Assembly: GCA_024278345.1 (NCBI GenBank)
Contig: JAJRTK010000396.1
Coordinates: 1 to 11,804 of the forward strand
DNA: 11,804 nucleotides
Direction: 5' to 3'
Source of the DNA: a bacterium
GTDB lineage: Bacteria; CSSED10-310; JAJRTK01
Part shown: positions 1-11,804 of the stretch, piece after piece
Position numbering within the stretch: the first letter of the stretch is position 1
Layout: each line of letters begins with the position of its first letter
The notes under the pieces: model-generated
What the model was told of the DNA's origin: nothing
The model's input: the letters and a program-made list of their open reading frames with translations, nothing else
Databases searched by the model: none
Position numbers and translations under genes: made by a program

Positions 1-56
1 AACGTGACCCTTCGAGTCACGCAAACGTGACCCTTCGAGTCACGCAAACGTGACCC
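1..56 (+). repeat. 23-bp tandem hairpin unit, two full copies plus a third partial
   Basis: The unit starts AACGTGACCCTTCGAGTCAC and recurs at 1, 24 and 47 with an exact 23-bp period. Each unit contains the 6-bp inverted pair CGTGAC/GTCACG, so adjacent units can fold either within or between units. The full element at 8882-9123 carries only one such unit (about 9024-9046), so this copy has expanded. There are no spacers, so it is not a CRISPR array. Confidence 0.8.
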
Positions 57-131
57 GCCGAGCGGAGCGCGGCGCTGCCCGATGCCAAGTTTTTTTTCCG
101 CGACCCATTGTCCCGCTTTGCGTGGATACCC
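1..131 (+). mobile_element. Right end of a MITE-like inverted-repeat element (partial)
   Basis: This stretch matches the right part of the complete element at 8882-9123. Positions 110-131 are identical over 22 bp to the right terminal repeat at 9102-9123, and 47-109 aligns closely to 9038-9101, including the hairpin around GCCGAGCGGAGCGC and a T-run. The left end lies outside the window, so its target duplication cannot be checked. There is no protein-coding capacity. The copy differs from the full one by having its hairpin unit repeated at 1-46. Confidence 0.75.
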
Positions 132-1227: not shown

Positions 1228-1272
1228 CGAAAATTTTTCCCCGCGACATTGTGCCGCCTTGCGTGGATGCCC
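1228..1272 (+). repeat. Degenerate right-end fragment of the MITE-like element
   Basis: Positions 1251-1272 match the 22-bp right terminal repeat (110-131, 9102-9123) with four differences. They are preceded, as in the other copies, by a T-run and CCCCGCGACATT. The rest of the element is not recognisable upstream, so this is an old truncated copy. Confidence 0.6.
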
Positions 1273-3381: not shown

Positions 3382-3403
3382 GGGTACCCACGCAAGGCGG
3401 GAC
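3382..3403 (+). repeat. Left terminal repeat of the MITE-like element (isolated)
   Basis: This differs at one position from the left terminal repeat at 8882-8903 (GGGTACCC here versus GGGTATCC). As in that copy, it is followed by an A/G-rich tract. No matching right terminus is found in the next 700 bp, so it is a relic or half element. Confidence 0.65.
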
Positions 3404-3578
3404 GAAGCAAAAAAACAAAAGAAAAAGGCTCAACATGGATTTCAGGGACCTACGTCGGAGCCTGGCCAGAAACACTCCGAACCACCACGGAAGCATGAAA
3501 AAAGAGAAAGACGCGGTGCCGAGCGAAGCGAGAAGCCGAGCACAAGCGAGGCCTACCGTCGAAAAAACCCGCGCAACG

Positions 3579-3732
3579 GGGACCTATCAGATCCGGTTGA
3601 CAACATCACTGCTGGGGCGGGCCTCCTTCCCGGCTCCGTTCAGCCCGGAGGGCGCTACACCGGCAAGATGCCGGTGCCACCGTTTCGGCGAAGAAAATTG
3701 TAAAGCAAAAACACGACAATTTGATAGGTCCC
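3579..3732. repeat. Inverted-repeat unit enclosing a TGILPV-type palindrome
   Basis: GGGACCTATCA (3579-3589) and TGATAGGTCCC (3722-3732) form a perfect 11-bp inverted pair around about 132 bp. Inside, at about 3659-3679, CACCGGCAAGATGCCGGTG is a short hairpin. Its minus-strand translation (GTGILPV) is a recurrent spurious peptide in repeat-rich bacterial genomes. No direct target duplication is obvious, and there is no coding capacity. Confidence 0.55.
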
Positions 3733-3736
3733 GCGC

Positions 3737-3865
3737 AGCGTACAAAAAATTGGGTCCTGGAATGTAGCGTCACGGCGTGCTGTGACCTTGCTCCACAAAG
3801 CAAAAGTCGTGCCATGCACCCACGCCAGGGAGCCAGCTCCCTGGACCCACATCTTTGTGCGCTGC
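3737..3865 (-). repeat. Degenerate hairpin-array copy in minus orientation
   Basis: Read on the minus strand, this goes GCACAAAGATGTGGGTCC, then a perfect hairpin CCAGGGAGC/GCTCCCTGG (3825-3844), then GTGGGTGCA. This parallels 8934-8980 of the full element and 11721-11763 at the window end. A second imperfect pair, GTCAC/GTGAC (3769-3786), corresponds to the GTCACG/CGTGAC hairpin. The termini are not conserved, which suggests an older copy. Confidence 0.6.
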
Positions 3866-3962
3866 GTGCTTTTTTCGGGTGGCCGGTACCATGACCGAGG
3901 CCCGGCGGTCGACCGGATAGCCGCCGCCGCGAGCGGAACTCAACCCTAAAAGAAAAAAGCGT

Positions 3963-4076
3963 TTTCGGACGCATCTGTCCTGGAGGCGTTCCACTACTGG
4001 GTTTTGATGGAGGAGGGTGTTTCGGACGCATCTGTCCTGGAGGCGTTCCACTACTGGGTTTTGATGGAGGAGGATG
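3963..4076. repeat. 57-bp tandem duplication
   Basis: Two adjacent 57-bp units (3963-4019 and 4020-4076) differ at a single position near their 3' ends (AGGGTG versus AGGATG). The unit begins TTTCGGACGCATCTGTCC and contains the small palindrome GGAC...GTCC. The length is a multiple of three, so the minus strand reads as a 19-residue repeat, but no real gene covers it. It lies 72 bp upstream of the truncated helicase start. Confidence 0.9.
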
Positions 4077-4148
4077 TTTTCGTTTCGCTCCTTGCCTCGA
4101 TTTTGTTAGCCTGGCTTTGGTGCCACTTACCGTTTTTCTGGGGGGGCC

Positions 4149-4643
4149 ATGCTTCCGTCCATTCTTGTTTCCCAGCTTCGCCAGGGGATGCGCGACTTCC
4201 TGGAGACCAGTTTCTGGTCCAGCACGCCGGAGTTTTCTGGGCTCATCGGCGATTTTCTGGATGAGCCGGGAAAGTTGTTTAAGGGATCCTACCTCTCTCT
4301 TGGGCTGCCCTTTCGCCAGGGGACGCGGGGGCCGGGTTATTTTCCCGGGATTCCTCTTGGCTTTCCGCCTCACTTGCATCAAGAACGGGTTTTCCAGCGG
4401 CTTTCTGGGCGGGCCAAGGGGAACACCCTGGTGGCGACGGGGACGGGTAGCGGGAAGACGGAGGCGTTTCTGTTGCCGGTCTTGGCGCATTGCTTGGAGA
4501 ATCTGGGTTTGCCGGGGATCAAGGCGATCTTGGTCTATCCCGTGAACGCGTTGGCGGTGGACCAGGCGCAGCGGTTGGGCCGGTTCGTTCACGGAAGCGA
4601 GGCGCTGCGGGGCAAGGTGACGACCGGGCTTTACGTGGGGGGC
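4149..4643 (+). pseudogene. N-terminal fragment of a large DUF1998/DruE-type SF2 helicase
   Basis: The first 165 codons look like the start of the roughly 1,800-2,000-residue DEAD/DEAH helicases found in defence islands, similar to Druantia DruE and other DUF1998 helicases. Residues 1-20 (MLPSILVSQLRQGMRDFLET) and the GSYLSLGLPFR and FPPHLHQERVF segments (46-82) precede a Walker A motif, ATGTGSGKTE (96-105), and motif Ia, VYPVNALAVDQ (129-139). After GLYVGG (about 160-165, position 4643) the similarity stops. The frame runs on to 4856, but that part is antisense to the methyltransferase. The Walker B, motif VI and DUF1998 regions are therefore missing and no active helicase can be made. The ATG is preceded by a run of G, a mediocre ribosome site. 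The N-terminus does not resemble DrmA as I know it. The family assignment is from recalled motif order, not a search. Confidence 0.7.
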
Positions 4644-4679
4644 GGTGGCAGGAGGTTGTGGGGCGGCGGGCGCGTGTGG
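4644..4679. other. Rearrangement (or assembly) seam between two broken convergent genes
   Basis: Helicase-like sequence on the plus strand ends at about 4643. Methyltransferase-like sequence on the minus strand ends at about 4680. The bases between are G-rich (GGTGGCAGGAGG...TGGGGCGGCGGG) and fit neither family. Both genes are cut internally, so the seam is an inversion, a deletion join or a misassembly. Confidence 0.65.
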
Positions 4680-6812
4680 GTTTTCCGGATCGACGAAGCG
4701 TCGGCCTGCGCCGATGAGGGAGTTGCCGCACTTGAGCTGGAGGCGGAACCAGTGGACATAGGCGCCCTGGTGGATGGTGTTGAGCCAGAGGGAGACCTGG
4801 GCGAGTTCGACGGCGGTGGGGTTGAGGTCGACGCCGAAGACGTTGTTGTCGGCTAGGAACATCTTGACTTTCTGTTTTTCGTGTGCGTAGTCCTCGAGGG
4901 GGATGGTGCGGTCGAGTTCTTTTTGTCGTCGTTGGAGGTAGATTTCGGCGAGCTGGTCGATGGCTTCGCCCAGGAAGGCGGCGCTGCCCATGGCGGGTTC
5001 GCAGAGGGTGATTCGGAGGATCTCTTGGGCGGTGGCGGGGCGGTGTTTTTCGTTGTGGAGGAGTTCGTCGAGGGCGTAATGGACGAGGCAGCGGGTGAGG
5101 GGTTCGGGGGTGTAGAAGGAGGCGGATTCCTGTCGGTCCCGGCCGGCCATGCGGTAGATGAAGGAGCCCTTGGGGTAGCGTTTGAAGGATCCGTCGTCGT
5201 TGTAGACGCGTTCGGTTTCGGCGTATTTCTCCAGTTCCCGGCGCGAGACGAAGTAGGCGGGGCCCAGGGGGTCGTGTTTGGCGTTGGTCGTTCCTCTTGC
5301 GGGTTGGACTTCGTAGAGGTCGGTTTTTGCGAAGAAGCCCCGGTAGGAGAGGAGTGCTTCGTAGACGGCGCCGAGTTGGTTGATGCCGAGCTGTGCGTAG
5401 GAGATGCGGCCTCGGCGGCGGTTTTTCCTGGAGTCGGGTCGGGAGAGGGAGAGGAGTTCGATGATGCGCTGCCAGACGAAGTTTCGGATGGTGACGGCTT
5501 CGAGGATCTCGTTTTTTCGGGGGTCGAAGAGGTGGGAGCGGAGGGGGTCGAGGTGGAAGGTTTTGTGGAGCGGCGCGGCGTCATCGGAGAGGGCGAGCTG
5601 GCGGTTTTCGCGGGTTCCCCGGTAGACGAGCCGGAAGAGGAGGGCGATGGATTGGTGGAAGTAGGTGCCGTTGCGCGCCTCGTCGGTGGTGAGTTCGACG
5701 AGTTCGAGTCGGCGGAGGCTTTCGAGGCTGTATCCCTTGCGGTAGGTCTCTTCGCCCATGGGGGCGTAGCCCAGTTCCGGCCGCGCCTCCAGGTAGAAGA
5801 GGAAGAGGAGCCGGTACATGACGCGGAGGCATTCGCGTCCCAGGTCTTGTCCCAGTTTGTGTTCGTCGAGTCTTTGCTTGCGCACCTCGCGCCAGTAGTA
5901 GACGGCTTCGTTGCCCAGGAGTTCGATGGCTTCGCGGAGGGCGTATTTGAGGTCCTGGCTGACGCCGTGTGCGTGTCGGTGCGAGCTTTCGTCGAGTCCG
6001 TCCAGGAGGCAGAGGCCGTCGCGCGGGGCCAGGCTTTGGCGGTGGAGGAGGGCGGCGGTGGCGCGGAGGGTTTCGGGTTCGCGGCGGCCAAGGATTTCCG
6101 GGAGGTGGAAGCGCAGGATGTGTTTTTCGGGCCACTTGGAGCGGTCCAGGAGGAGGAGCTGTTCCAGGCCGCAGAGAAGGATGAAGCGGGGCGGCTCGGG
6201 GAGGTTGAAGATCTGTTGGTTCAGGAGTTCTTCCAGGGAAAGGTTCTGGACGGCGAGGGGCAGTTCGTGGGCCGGGGGAAGCTGCCAGGGTTGGATGCGG
6301 CAGTCCAGGGGATCGGCGGGAGCGCCGGCGAGGTCGAGGGGGGAGGCGGAGGGCGAGGGCCGAGGGGCGGCGTCGGTGGCGCGTGCGGCGGTTCCGGTGG
6401 CCCAGTCGTCGGCGGCCAGGGCGGGGATGCACCAGACCAGGGGGGCTCCGTCGTGGCGGCGGACGTGGGCCAGGAGAGGAAGGGGTCCTTGGGGGAGAGG
6501 GACCACGGCGTTGGGGGCGTGACCGGCCAGGGGCTCGTAGCCCAGGGCATGGAGGAGCTCGGTGAAGAAGCCGCGGTGGAGATCGCTGCGTTGGCGCTGG
6601 TCCCGCTCCCGCTCCAGATCGTTCCGGAACTTGAAGAAAGGGCGTGCCACGCGCCGCAGCGCGGCCTCGGGGGTGGATTTTCCGTCCTTTTCGGCTTGCT
6701 GGCGCCACCGGGGGACGAGGTTTCGCTTCAGTTCGCCTTCCATGATGGCGGTGAGGTAGTGGTGGGTATAGAATTCCTGGACGTTTTCGATGCCGGTGAA
6801 GTGGGTGGTCAT
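4680..6812 (-). pseudogene. drmMI: DrmMI-like N6-adenine DNA methyltransferase, 3'-truncated
   Basis: About 711 residues of a large DISARM/PglX-like (Eco57I-type) methyltransferase are present. The N-terminal region starts MTTHFTGIENVQEFYTHHYL and leads to the AdoMet motif I, CEPAMGSAAFL (604-614). FGVDLNPTAVELAQVSLWLN follows from 659, then CGNSLIGA (695-702). In this family the catalytic NPPY/NPPF motif IV and the target-recognition region follow, and both are absent. Homology stops at about position 4680, although the frame stays open to 3606 antisense to the helicase fragment and through repeats. Its ATG overlaps the drmD stop (ATGA, 6809-6812), so the pair was translationally coupled. 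Its role would be methylating host DNA so that DISARM helicases spare it. As present, it should bind AdoMet poorly or not at all and cannot methylate. The DrmMI label rests on the coupling to DrmD. Confidence 0.75.
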
Positions 6813-8577: not shown

Positions 8578-8737
8578 AATCCGCGCCTCCTTTGACTCCC
8601 CCCGAAAAACCGCGTCCAATCCATCCCCCAGCTCGCGACTCCCGGCCAGACCCTCCGCGTCCGGTTCCCGCCCAGCTCTTCTTCCTTCGCTCATCTCCAC
8701 CGGCCGAATGTCCTCTCTCCCTGCTGTGTTCCGCTCG

Positions 8738-8763
8738 CATCGGGCGCGTCCCACGCCCGCTCC
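8738..8763. repeat. 26-bp repeat shared with 9213-9238 in the drmD linker
   Basis: CATCGGGCGCGTCCC followed by A (here) or G (at 9213-9238) and CGCCCGCTCC: 25 of 26 bases are identical. The copies are 475 bp apart, or 225 bp (75 codons) apart once the 250-bp insertion footprint is subtracted, so they were in frame in the pre-insertion gene and both read GRARC(E/D)R. Confidence 0.7.
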
Positions 8764-8798
8764 TCGCCCCTCTTCCCCCCAATCCCCATCCAGTACCC

Positions 8799-8882
8799 GG
8801 GAGGCCGGGGGCACTTCTTCGCCTTCCCGCGGCAGCTCCAGGGAGGCCGGGGGCACCTCTTCGCCGTCCCGCGCCAGCTCCG
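8799..8882. repeat. 42-bp tandem duplication in the drmD linker
   Basis: Two adjacent 42-bp units (8799-8840 and 8841-8882) begin GGGAGGCCGGGGGCAC and differ at a few positions. In the pre-insertion frame they encode two 14-residue repeats containing EEVPPAS. The second unit contains the CCAGCTCC sequence used as the insertion target. Confidence 0.8.
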
Positions 8883-9123
8883 GGTATCCACGCAAGGCGG
8901 GACGGAACAGGAAAAGAAGAGGGAAAACGCGAAGCGTACAAGAATGTGGGTCCAGGGAGCTCGCTCCCTGGTGGGTGCAGGGTGAAGCCCTGCCAGGGGA
9001 CCGGGGACGGAGTCCCCGGACGACCTTCGAGTCACGCAAACGTGACCCGCCGAGCGGAGCGCGGCGTTGTCCGAGGCCAAGTTTTTTCCCCGGCGACCAT
9101 TGTCCCGCTTTGCGTGGATACCC
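8882..9123. mobile_element. Complete 242-bp MITE-like element with TIRs and 8-bp target duplication
   Basis: The left terminus 8882-8903 and right terminus 9102-9123 are 22-bp inverted repeats with a single mismatch (starting GGGTATCCACGCAA). They are flanked immediately by the direct repeat CCAGCTCC at 8874-8881 and 9124-9131. The interior has no transposase and is a row of hairpins: CCAGGGAGC/GCTCCCTGG (8952-8971), GCAGGG/CCCTGC (8977-8993), CCGGGGAC-GGA-GTCCCCGG (9001-9019), GTCACG/CGTGAC (9031-9046) and CGCCG/CGGCG (9048-9066). It must be mobilised in trans. An 8-bp duplication is typical of several DDE transposase families, but I cannot say which one. Confidence 0.88.
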
Positions 9124-10483
9124 CCAGCTCCCAGTCCCACGGGACCAGGCTCGCGCCCTCTTTCCCCGTTGCGTCTCTTTGCCCGCCGGGCCCACGGCTC
9201 GGCGATCGATCACATCGGGCGCGTCCCGCGCCCGCTCCAGGCCCGTCGCCACCGCCCTCCAGCCTCCTGGAATCCCGGATCCGCCGGATCTTCCGGAGCC
9301 GGTTTTCGATGGTCCGAATGCAGGCCCCGGGGCTGGAAAGGAGCGCCGTCTCCAGGGTCGTTCTGAAGAGCCGCTGGCCGCCTCGGTGGCTTTCCCCAGC
9401 GCCGAAGCGGAGCTTCGAGAAGATCCCGTAGGCCGCCTCTTCCTCCGGCGTGGCCGCGGCTCGGACCAAGGTCGTCTCCCGCTCCGGGATGGCGTTTCCC
9501 AGTTGATTCTCGATATCGTTCTTGAAGCGCCGGATGTAGAGCCCGTCGATTTCCTCCTTGGTGTAGTCGTCCTCGTCAGCGATCGCCGTGGGACCCAGCA
9601 TGTTCATCAAGCTGGCGAAGCTCCTGGCTCTGCCGTCGTGGGGCGTGGCCGACAGCATGATCAGGCTGTCCGACCTGCTGGCAAGGAGCCGTGCCAGTCG
9701 CGACCGGAGAGAGGAGTTGGTGCCCCGGACGGCCACGTTCTGCGCCTCGTCGATGACGATGACGTCCCAGTGCGCGGTCTCCAGGTAGTGGCGGTACTCG
9801 TTGTTTTGCTTCAAAGTGTCAATGGAGATGATGGCCTTGTCGAAGATGTGAAATGGATTGTGGTTTGTGGGGATCCGGCGGCGGATGCGGCCCAGGCCCA
9901 CGGAGTCCAGCCGCACCAGGGGAATGGTGAAGCGGCACCACATCTCCTTCTGGAACTGGGTCAGCAGGCTCTTGAGGACCACCACCAGGATCCGTTTTCC
10001 CCGGCCCCGGGCCATGAGCTCCGAAAGGAGAATCCCGGCTTCCAGGGTTTTCCCGAGGCCGACGCCATCGGCGATGAGGATCCTCTGCCTGGGCTGGCGG
10101 AGCGCCTTGGCCGCCGGCTCCAACTGATATTCCAGAAGATCCATGGCCGCCCGGTGCCCGATATGAAGGCGCTCGTCCGTAGGCGGGATCCGCCGGTACA
10201 GGCTCTCCAGGTAGAGAAGGGAGGCCCGGTAACCGCTGGAACTGTCCCGGACCAGTTTTGTCTCCACCGGATCCAGGATTTCCATGGAAGGCTCGATCTC
10301 CGAAAGGAAAACCGCCTCCTGATCCCGCACCAGCTCCGTCATGCCTACGACATGCGCCGCCTGCCCCCCCGTGGAGGTATGCTCCACCTTCAAAATCCGC
10401 CAGACCTCGTCCCGCACCCGGATGTGCGTCCCAGGCGCCAAAGGTGCCTCCGCGCCCCCTCTAACAGTTTTCTTACAGCTCAT
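9032..10483 (-). pseudogene. drmD: DrmD N-terminal half: SNF2 ATPase lobe
   Basis: This is a 483-codon frame. After a small N-terminal domain (about 15-75) come the Walker A motif ADGVGLGKT (138-146), the Walker B motif VIVIDEAQ (241-248, a DEAQ variant of DEAH), and motif III LSATPHDG (277-284). The segment TALLSSPGACIRTIENRLRKIR (from about 379) is the typical end of the first lobe in this family. The start ATG at 10481-10483 has GGGGAGGAAG 7-16 nt upstream. From about residue 405 the sequence is low-complexity linker. The frame enters the mobile element at 9123 and stops inside it at 9032, so the product would lack the second RecA lobe and could not act as a translocase. Confidence 0.85.
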
Positions 10484-10572: not shown

Positions 10573-10793
10573 GAGCGGCCAGCCACGGACCGGCCAGGTG
10601 CTGGCGGGAGCGGAACCGGTGGCAGGCTCCCGGGAAAACCTGGTAGGTTGCGATCCAGCCACTAGCCCCGGCCCGCGGCGACACGAGGCACCGCATCGGC
10701 GACCGCCGCCTGGCCGGGGATCCGCGGAACTCGCCAAACAACCGAATCGAATCAACGCGAATTGGCCGGGACCGAACGCCAGCCCAAGCAACC

Positions 10794-10798
10794 GGAGG
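10794..10798 (+). promoter_or_regulatory. Ribosome binding site fixing the Dam-type methyltransferase start
   Basis: GGAGG lies 8 nt before ATG 10807. This favours that ATG over an in-frame TTG at 10762. Confidence 0.65.
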
Positions 10799-10806
10799 CG
10801 CCGACG

Positions 10807-11676
10807 ATGACCGCCCCAGCCGCGAAATGTGCGCCCTTCCTCAAGTGGGCCGGCGGCAAGCGCCAGCTCTTGCCCATTCTCCGGGCGCACCTTCCGACCG
10901 GGATCGCGGACTACTACGAACCGTTCGTCGGCTCCGGCGCCCTCTTCTTCGACCTCGCATTTCGCGGAATGATTCGAGGAACCGCCCACCTGTGGGACCA
11001 GAATCCCGGCCTCGTCAACGTCTATCGAGTGCTGCGGGATTCCCGGGCCGAACTCGTCGAACTCCTCTCCCGCCACAAGAAACAGCACGATCCCGCGGAT
11101 TCGGCCTACTACTATCGACAACGGGCGAGGTTCAACGCCACGAACCCCGACACGATTGAACATGCCGCAATGTTCATCTACCTGAACAAGACCTGTTTCA
11201 ACGGACTCTTCCGCGTCAATAGCAAAGGCCGTTTCAACGTCCCCATGGGCGCTTACAAGAATCCGGGAATCTTCGACCCGGAAAACCTTCGGGCCGTCTC
11301 CCGGGCCCTGGAAGAGGTCGAACTCAAGGTCGCCGACTTCCGGGAACTGGACCCGGCGGGGATCAAGGCCGGCAGCTTCGTCTATTTCGACCCGCCCTAC
11401 CAGCCCCTGGACACGACGAGCAACTTCACGAGCTACACGCGGGGCAGTTTTTCCGAAAGCGACCAGCGACACCTTGCGGACCTGTTTGGGCGGCTCCGGA
11501 ACGCCGGCATCCCATCCATGCTCAGCAACTCTTGGACGCCGCTGGTGAAAGAGCTTTACGCCGAATTCCACATCCAGCCCATCCAGGCGCGAAGGTCCAT
11601 CAACTCCAACGGCGGAAAGAGGGGACGGATCCCGGAGGCCCTCGTCCTGAACTACGCGGCAAAGGCAAGATCGTGA
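10807..11676 (+). CDS. Dam-type N6-adenine DNA methyltransferase (D12 class)
   Basis: This 289-residue protein of normal length carries all hallmarks of the D12 class. FLKWAGGK (11-18) is motif X, which binds AdoMet. FVGSGALFF (40-48) is motif I. LNKTCFNGLFRVN (126-138) is a segment diagnostic of Dam relatives, which in the family contributes to DNA contact. DPPY (195-198) is the catalytic motif IV. ARRSIN (261-266) is near the C-terminus. It would transfer a methyl group from AdoMet to adenine N6, in GATC if it follows Dam, though specificity cannot be read here. It is divergent from drmD, and no cognate restriction enzyme is visible, so it is either an orphan or a partner of a gene beyond the window. 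The frame is intact, in contrast to the broken neighbouring methyltransferase. Confidence 0.92.
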   Translation: MTAPAAKCAPFLKWAGGKRQLLPILRAHLPTGIADYYEPFVGSGALFFDLAFRGMIRGTAHLWDQNPGLVNVYRVLRDSRAELVELLSRHKKQHDPADSAYYYRQRARFNATNPDTIEHAAMFIYLNKTCFNGLFRVNSKGRFNVPMGAYKNPGIFDPENLRAVSRALEEVELKVADFRELDPAGIKAGSFVYFDPPYQPLDTTSNFTSYTRGSFSESDQRHLADLFGRLRNAGIPSMLSNSWTPLVKELYAEFHIQPIQARRSINSNGGKRGRIPEALVLNYAAKARS

Positions 11677-11704
11677 ACGGCTCCGTCCATCGTTTCGGCC
11701 ACCA

Positions 11705-11804
11705 TACGACGCGGAGCGTCGTACATAAATGTGGGTCCAGGGAGCGCGCTCCCTGGCGTGGGTCTGGGAGCAGCGCTCCCAGCGGAGGTCCGGAGGCGGA
11801 GCCT
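11705..11804 (+). repeat. Hairpin array related to the MITE-like element, running off the window
   Basis: Perfect hairpins follow one another: TACGACGC-GGA-GCGTCGTA (11705-11723), CCAGGGAGC-GC-GCTCCCTGG (11737-11756) and CTGGGAGC-AGC-GCTCCCAG (11764-11782), then the start of another ending GGCGGAGCC. ATGTGGGTCCAGGGAGC is shared with the full element at 8944-8960. The 22-bp left terminus is not present before 11705. The first hairpin, 29 bp after the methyltransferase stop, might also act as a transcription terminator, but no U-run follows. Confidence 0.7.

Follow-up and report, generated by a model that had tools for sequence, protein, structure and literature searches.

A high-copy MITE with a row of hairpins, one of them variable in tandem number, between the lobes of a DrmD-like helicase

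The stretch of DNA analysed here (11,804 nucleotides, hereafter the window) is one entire contig of a draft genome of 6.06 Mb (550 contigs, 88% complete). It carries a 242-bp insert between two open reading frames (ORFs) that both have DrmD, a SNF2-type helicase, as their best PADLOC match (3e-60 and 3e-43). The insertion point is the GC-rich stretch between the two helicase lobes, where other repeats are also located. Removal of the element and one copy of its flanking octamer does not give a single open helicase frame, the frame of the first lobe leading into one other than that of the second. The joined flanks thus do not appear to support an intact gene as the target, and the frame mismatch is either an earlier frameshift in the linker, a later change or an error in the draft sequence. 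Within the same linker, a 54-bp direct repeat (78%; 8732-8785 and 9207-9260) flanks the element beside 42-bp repeats, and this pair may explain the frame problem.

The surrounding genes give a similarly mixed picture. The methyltransferase ORF (type IIG/DrmMI-like, 3606-6812, minus strand) matches type IIG better than DrmMI; profile matches stop at residue 709 of 1068, its C-terminal third matches nothing, and the sequence past the matched part contains other mobile elements. A fragment of a DruE-like helicase (4149-4856, plus strand) overlaps this ORF on the other strand. Beside the broken helicase there is also an open gene for a D12-class adenine methyltransferase (10762-11676), one of two in the genome. 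Neither drmA, drmB nor drmC was recognised among the scanned ORFs of the 11.8-kb contig, and a search of the 88% complete genome for the MZB domain (PF09369) retrieved a single protein, a BrxHI-like helicase rather than DrmB. The attribution of the split gene to DISARM in the earlier note is therefore only partly sustained: the gene is DrmD-like, but no drmA, drmB or drmC was recognised among the scanned ORFs of the contig and the methyltransferase is closer to type IIG. Taken as a whole, the region around the insert looks like a decaying defence locus.

The insert itself (8882-9123), as read directly from the sequence, is bounded by 22-bp inverted termini with one mismatch; the left end GGGTATCCACGCAAGGCGGGAC (8882-8903) and the right end GTCCCGCTTTGCGTGGATACCC (9102-9123) are complementary at 21 of 22 positions. 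The octamer CCAGCTCC abuts it on both sides. Its parts are as follows.

8874-8881, plus strand: left copy of the 8-bp target duplication CCAGCTCC (direct reading; other copies are arranged alike)
8882-8903, plus strand: left 22-bp terminal inverted repeat GGGTATCCACGCAAGGCGGGAC (sequence and genome-wide terminus matches)
8904-8946, plus strand: A/G-rich left subterminal part, ending in a small hairpin, ACGCGAAGCGT and ACAAGAATG (36-copy alignment)
8952-8971, plus strand: hairpin 1, CCAGGGAGCTCGCTCCCTGG, a module common to a second MITE family
8977-8993, plus strand: hairpin 2, GCAGGGTGAAGCCCTGC
9003-9017, plus strand: hairpin 3, GGGGACGGAGTCCCC; GGGGATGGAATCCCC or GGGGCCGGAGGCCCC in other copies
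9024-9046, plus strand: hairpin 4, one 23-bp unit CCTTCGAGTCACGCAAACGTGAC; other copies have 0 to 5 units
9048-9066, plus strand: hairpin 5, CGCCGAGCGGAGCGCGGCG (fold and 36-copy alignment)
9102-9123, minus strand: right terminal inverted repeat (22 bp), differing from the left one by a single mismatch
9124-9131, plus strand: right copy of the 8-bp target duplication CCAGCTCC (direct reading)

The insert is a miniature element of the MITE class, non-autonomous and bounded by terminal inverted repeats of 22 bp, and the genome offers many copies in which this can be followed. The terminus GGGTATCCACGCAARGCGGGAC has 328 matches in the genome when up to 2 mismatches are allowed and 443 when up to 3 are, and the reversed pattern used as control has none. 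In 60 contigs (0.575 Mb) chosen regardless of the element, the terminus in a less strict form was found 54 times (reversed control 0); scaled from this sample, and with two ends each, this gives some 280 elements per genome. The whole 242-bp element has 65 blast matches.

Target duplications were read in detail in 134 stretches (about 1.34 Mb, 22% of the draft genome). Of 45 facing terminus pairs less than 450 bp apart in these stretches, 13 have a perfect 8-bp duplication, against about 0.0007 expected by chance (4^-8 each); four more have one with a single mismatch, and three further copies have a perfect 9-bp duplication. The octamers vary from site to site. None of the 12 terminus pairs separated by at least 450 bp has a duplication. 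Among the short pairs about half lack one, some of them being decayed, nested, mispaired or cut by contig ends. Since 328 terminus matches stand against none for the reversed pattern, and 13 duplications against 0.0007 expected, chance is excluded. The paired copies span 210-367 bp and contain no transposase gene, as the MITE class requires; their termini are conserved from copy to copy and the duplication is of constant length, its sequence varying with the site. The original proposal of a non-autonomous element with a target duplication is therefore confirmed, with many copies carrying different 8-bp (in a few cases 9-bp) duplications.

Other pieces of such elements are found elsewhere in the window, belonging to the same family and to two more.

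1-131, plus strand: another copy of the same family, of which the contig start leaves the right-hand part; it includes at least two 23-bp hairpin units, and its right terminus is at 110-131
1231-1272, plus strand: right-end fragment of the same family
3382-3432, plus strand: left-end fragment of the same family (terminal inverted repeat at 3382-3403)
3579-3732, plus strand: complete element of 154 bp from a third family (terminal inverted repeat GGGACCTATCA...), with flanks GCGCAACG/GCGCAGCG differing by one mismatch
3810-3902, minus strand: part of an element of the second MITE family (terminal inverted repeat GGCCTCGGTCATGGTACCGGCCAC) with hairpin 1
11684-11804, plus strand: left part of an element resembling the second family, truncated at the contig end

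Partial copies had been listed earlier at five places. Those at 1-131, 1228-1272 and 3382-3403 do belong to the family of the insert, but those at 3737-3865 and 11705-11804 are mostly of the second family, which has other termini and the hairpin-1 module in common; the complete third-family member was absent from that list. The second family is about 200 bp long with ends GGCCTCGGTCATGGTACCGGCCAC, and the third is 154 bp long with ends GGGACCTATCA; both have 8-9-bp duplications, and the third has 17 other copies with perfect 8-bp duplications in the genome stretches read in detail. The 200-bp and 242-bp families have in common a stretch of 55-79 bp that includes hairpin 1 (76-87% identity), though their ends differ.

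The interior of the 242-bp element has no recognisable gene and consists of a row of small GC-rich hairpins; one of these, of 23/24 bp, expands and contracts in tandem in the manner of a minisatellite. Folded as single-stranded DNA or RNA, the element is far more stable than its shuffled versions (z -7.5 as DNA and -6.7 as RNA; none of 200 dinucleotide shuffles was as stable). Thirty-six aligned copies have one order of modules: terminus, A/G-rich stretch, small hairpin (ACGC-GAA-GCGT), hairpins 1 to 5, tail and terminus. In this alignment hairpin 1 is CCAGGGAG...CTCCCTGG, hairpin 2 GCAGGG...CCCTGC, hairpin 3 GGGGAC...GTCCCC and hairpin 4 GTCACG...CGTGAC, and single hairpins are often missing or repeated. 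The unit of hairpin 4 (23/24 bp) is absent in 23 places, single in about 41, double in about 13, triple in 3 and present five times in 1. Changes in this number could have arisen by replication slippage or recombination.

On 22 distinct copies, 96.5% of the stem cells of hairpins 1-3 are paired, a value reached by none of 500 shuffles. Changes on both sides of a stem are seen in 3 of 22 pairs. Only one of these three changes often, the top pair of hairpin 3, where C-G has become T-A in 8 of the 22 copies; most stems are nearly invariant. The hairpin series described in the earlier note is thus borne out, with stems kept and few compensatory changes, and support for selection on structure is modest. 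The strong folding, the paired stems with the change in hairpin 3 and the presence of hairpin 1 in two families with different termini would all suit a structured RNA or regulatory element used by the host (a terminator or mRNA stabiliser), which transposition only spreads. We consider this unlikely. Two-sided changes are few in stems that hardly vary, and template switching within palindromes can also yield stem-preserving changes; moreover, the element has no match in Rfam, a consensus search found no terminator-like or promoter-like site in it, and copies differ freely in which hairpins they have and in how many. The hairpins would then have no essential role in the host. It is quite unlikely, too, that they are exchangeable modules preserved for their structure, traded and varied in number among MITE families with unrelated ends, and dispersed as structured transcripts or DNA that act in the cell or during transposition.

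Rather, the 242-bp insert is almost certainly a high-copy MITE moved in trans, with an interior made of a row of hairpins that includes one tandem-variable unit. A transposase acting in trans would recognise the termini and cut the target with a stagger of 8 bp, or sometimes 9 bp, leading to the target duplication; to judge by structure alone, it would be a DDE transposase. Along these lines, the earlier note had looked forward to copies with different 8-bp flanks, which were found, and to an autonomous relative with the same termini, which was not: no transposase with the termini of the 242-bp family appeared in the genome searches for IS1595, ISKra4, ISL3, IS256 and IS5 or in the 22% of the genome that was read. 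The partner may be located outside the 22% that was read or in sequence missing from the draft, or may have been lost.

The ISL3 and IS1595 families both give 8-bp duplications and both occur in this genome, which makes them candidates as mobilisers, but their ends differ from those of the 242-bp family. The end of an ISL3 copy in C5 is GGCTCTTCGCCA and the IS1595 ends are GGCTCTATATGCGATCC, both unlike GGGTATCCACGC. In addition, this ISL3 copy seems to be located within a MITE copy, the sequence past its end (AAAAATGTGGGTCCAG) being MITE interior. Mobilisation by either family therefore seems most unlikely. IS256 transposases had no match in the genome, and those of IS5 were found as fragments only. 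The ISKra4/ISMich2 group (Mutator-like) has GGG ends and 8-9-bp duplications, which would presumably suit the 242-bp family, whose termini start with GGG and whose duplications are of 8-9 bp. Within the MITE interpretation, the family could thus descend from, and have been mobilised by, a transposase of this type that now persists only as pseudogene fragments. The ISKra4 profile has four weak, broken matches in the genome, but none of these fragments is bounded by the termini of the 242-bp family, and we regard this origin as possible, if rather doubtful.

Three candidates for an autonomous copy or its end were rejected. A 2.2-kb interval bounded by termini in C253 (L119 169-2376) has no duplication and contains ordinary host genes. 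In C481, a host gene separates the right terminus from the ISKra4-like fragment near it. At the start of C5, an ISL3 gene is followed by hairpins and a right terminus, but its own ISL3-type end precedes the MITE sequence, and for this reason it reads as an IS inside a MITE. Nesting of this kind, with MITEs within one another and within IS copies, recurs in the genome. In C5 (L083 1-1238) a 200-bp MITE sits within the ISL3 transposase gene, and that ISL3 copy appears to lie in turn within a copy of the 242-bp family, which would make a three-level nest.

The nearest known element is BrickBuilt of Porphyromonas gingivalis, which similarly has short inverted ends, a leader and a tail, an inner tandem 23-nt unit and no remnant of a transposase (PMC4596501). 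BrickBuilt has 19 copies, always intergenic, with irregular duplications and 12-bp IS5-type termini, GAGACC (PMC4596501, Table 2). Compared with this description, the element found here is present in hundreds of copies and has termini of 22 bp, duplications of 8-9 bp and more than one type of hairpin, several in all. A tandem unit of about 23 bp in variable number (0, 1, 2, 3 or 5) is present here also; the termini are not of the GAGACC type but GGGTATCCACGC. The 242-bp family is, like BrickBuilt, a MITE plus a minisatellite. Other elements are similar in modularity, size or copy number. The BOX elements of Streptococcus pneumoniae are modular: one unit varies in its number of repeats, and the secondary structure is strong. 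They insert into one another (PMC10969869). Modularity, a variable unit, strong folding and mutual insertion are common to BOX and the present element, which we set apart by description rather than sequence comparison, its inverted ends and 8-bp duplications being much clearer. Chunjie, a MITE of Geobacter uraniireducens (178-235 bp, 38 full and 57 partial copies), has conserved termini and direct repeats, and one copy disrupts an operon (PMC10969869). By description it is alike in size, termini, direct repeats and many partial copies, whereas several hundred copies are found here. ERIC of enterobacteria is a very high-copy MITE-like element, with 711 copies in Photorhabdus luminescens, and is common to several bacterial families (PMC10969869).

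The copy number here is likewise very high, but the 242-bp element was not found in 59 other genomes, apart from single terminus matches with 3 mismatches. Its terminus had no match in IMG/VR and the element none beyond 27 bp in plasmids. Since the searches matched it nowhere outside its own genome, the family appears to be undescribed so far, and we file it as a new MITE family, set apart from BrickBuilt, BOX, Chunjie and ERIC by their descriptions. Rather than a new kind of element, it is another case of a MITE-borne minisatellite, here of hairpin units, with one module common to families with different ends.

Together the three MITE families make up 903 bp of the window. Markers of these families were found at 44% of contig ends and in 2.1% of inner stretches, and much of the fragmentation of the draft genome is therefore probably due to them. 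A 57-bp unit in two tandem copies, 98% identical, is located at 3963-4076 of the window.
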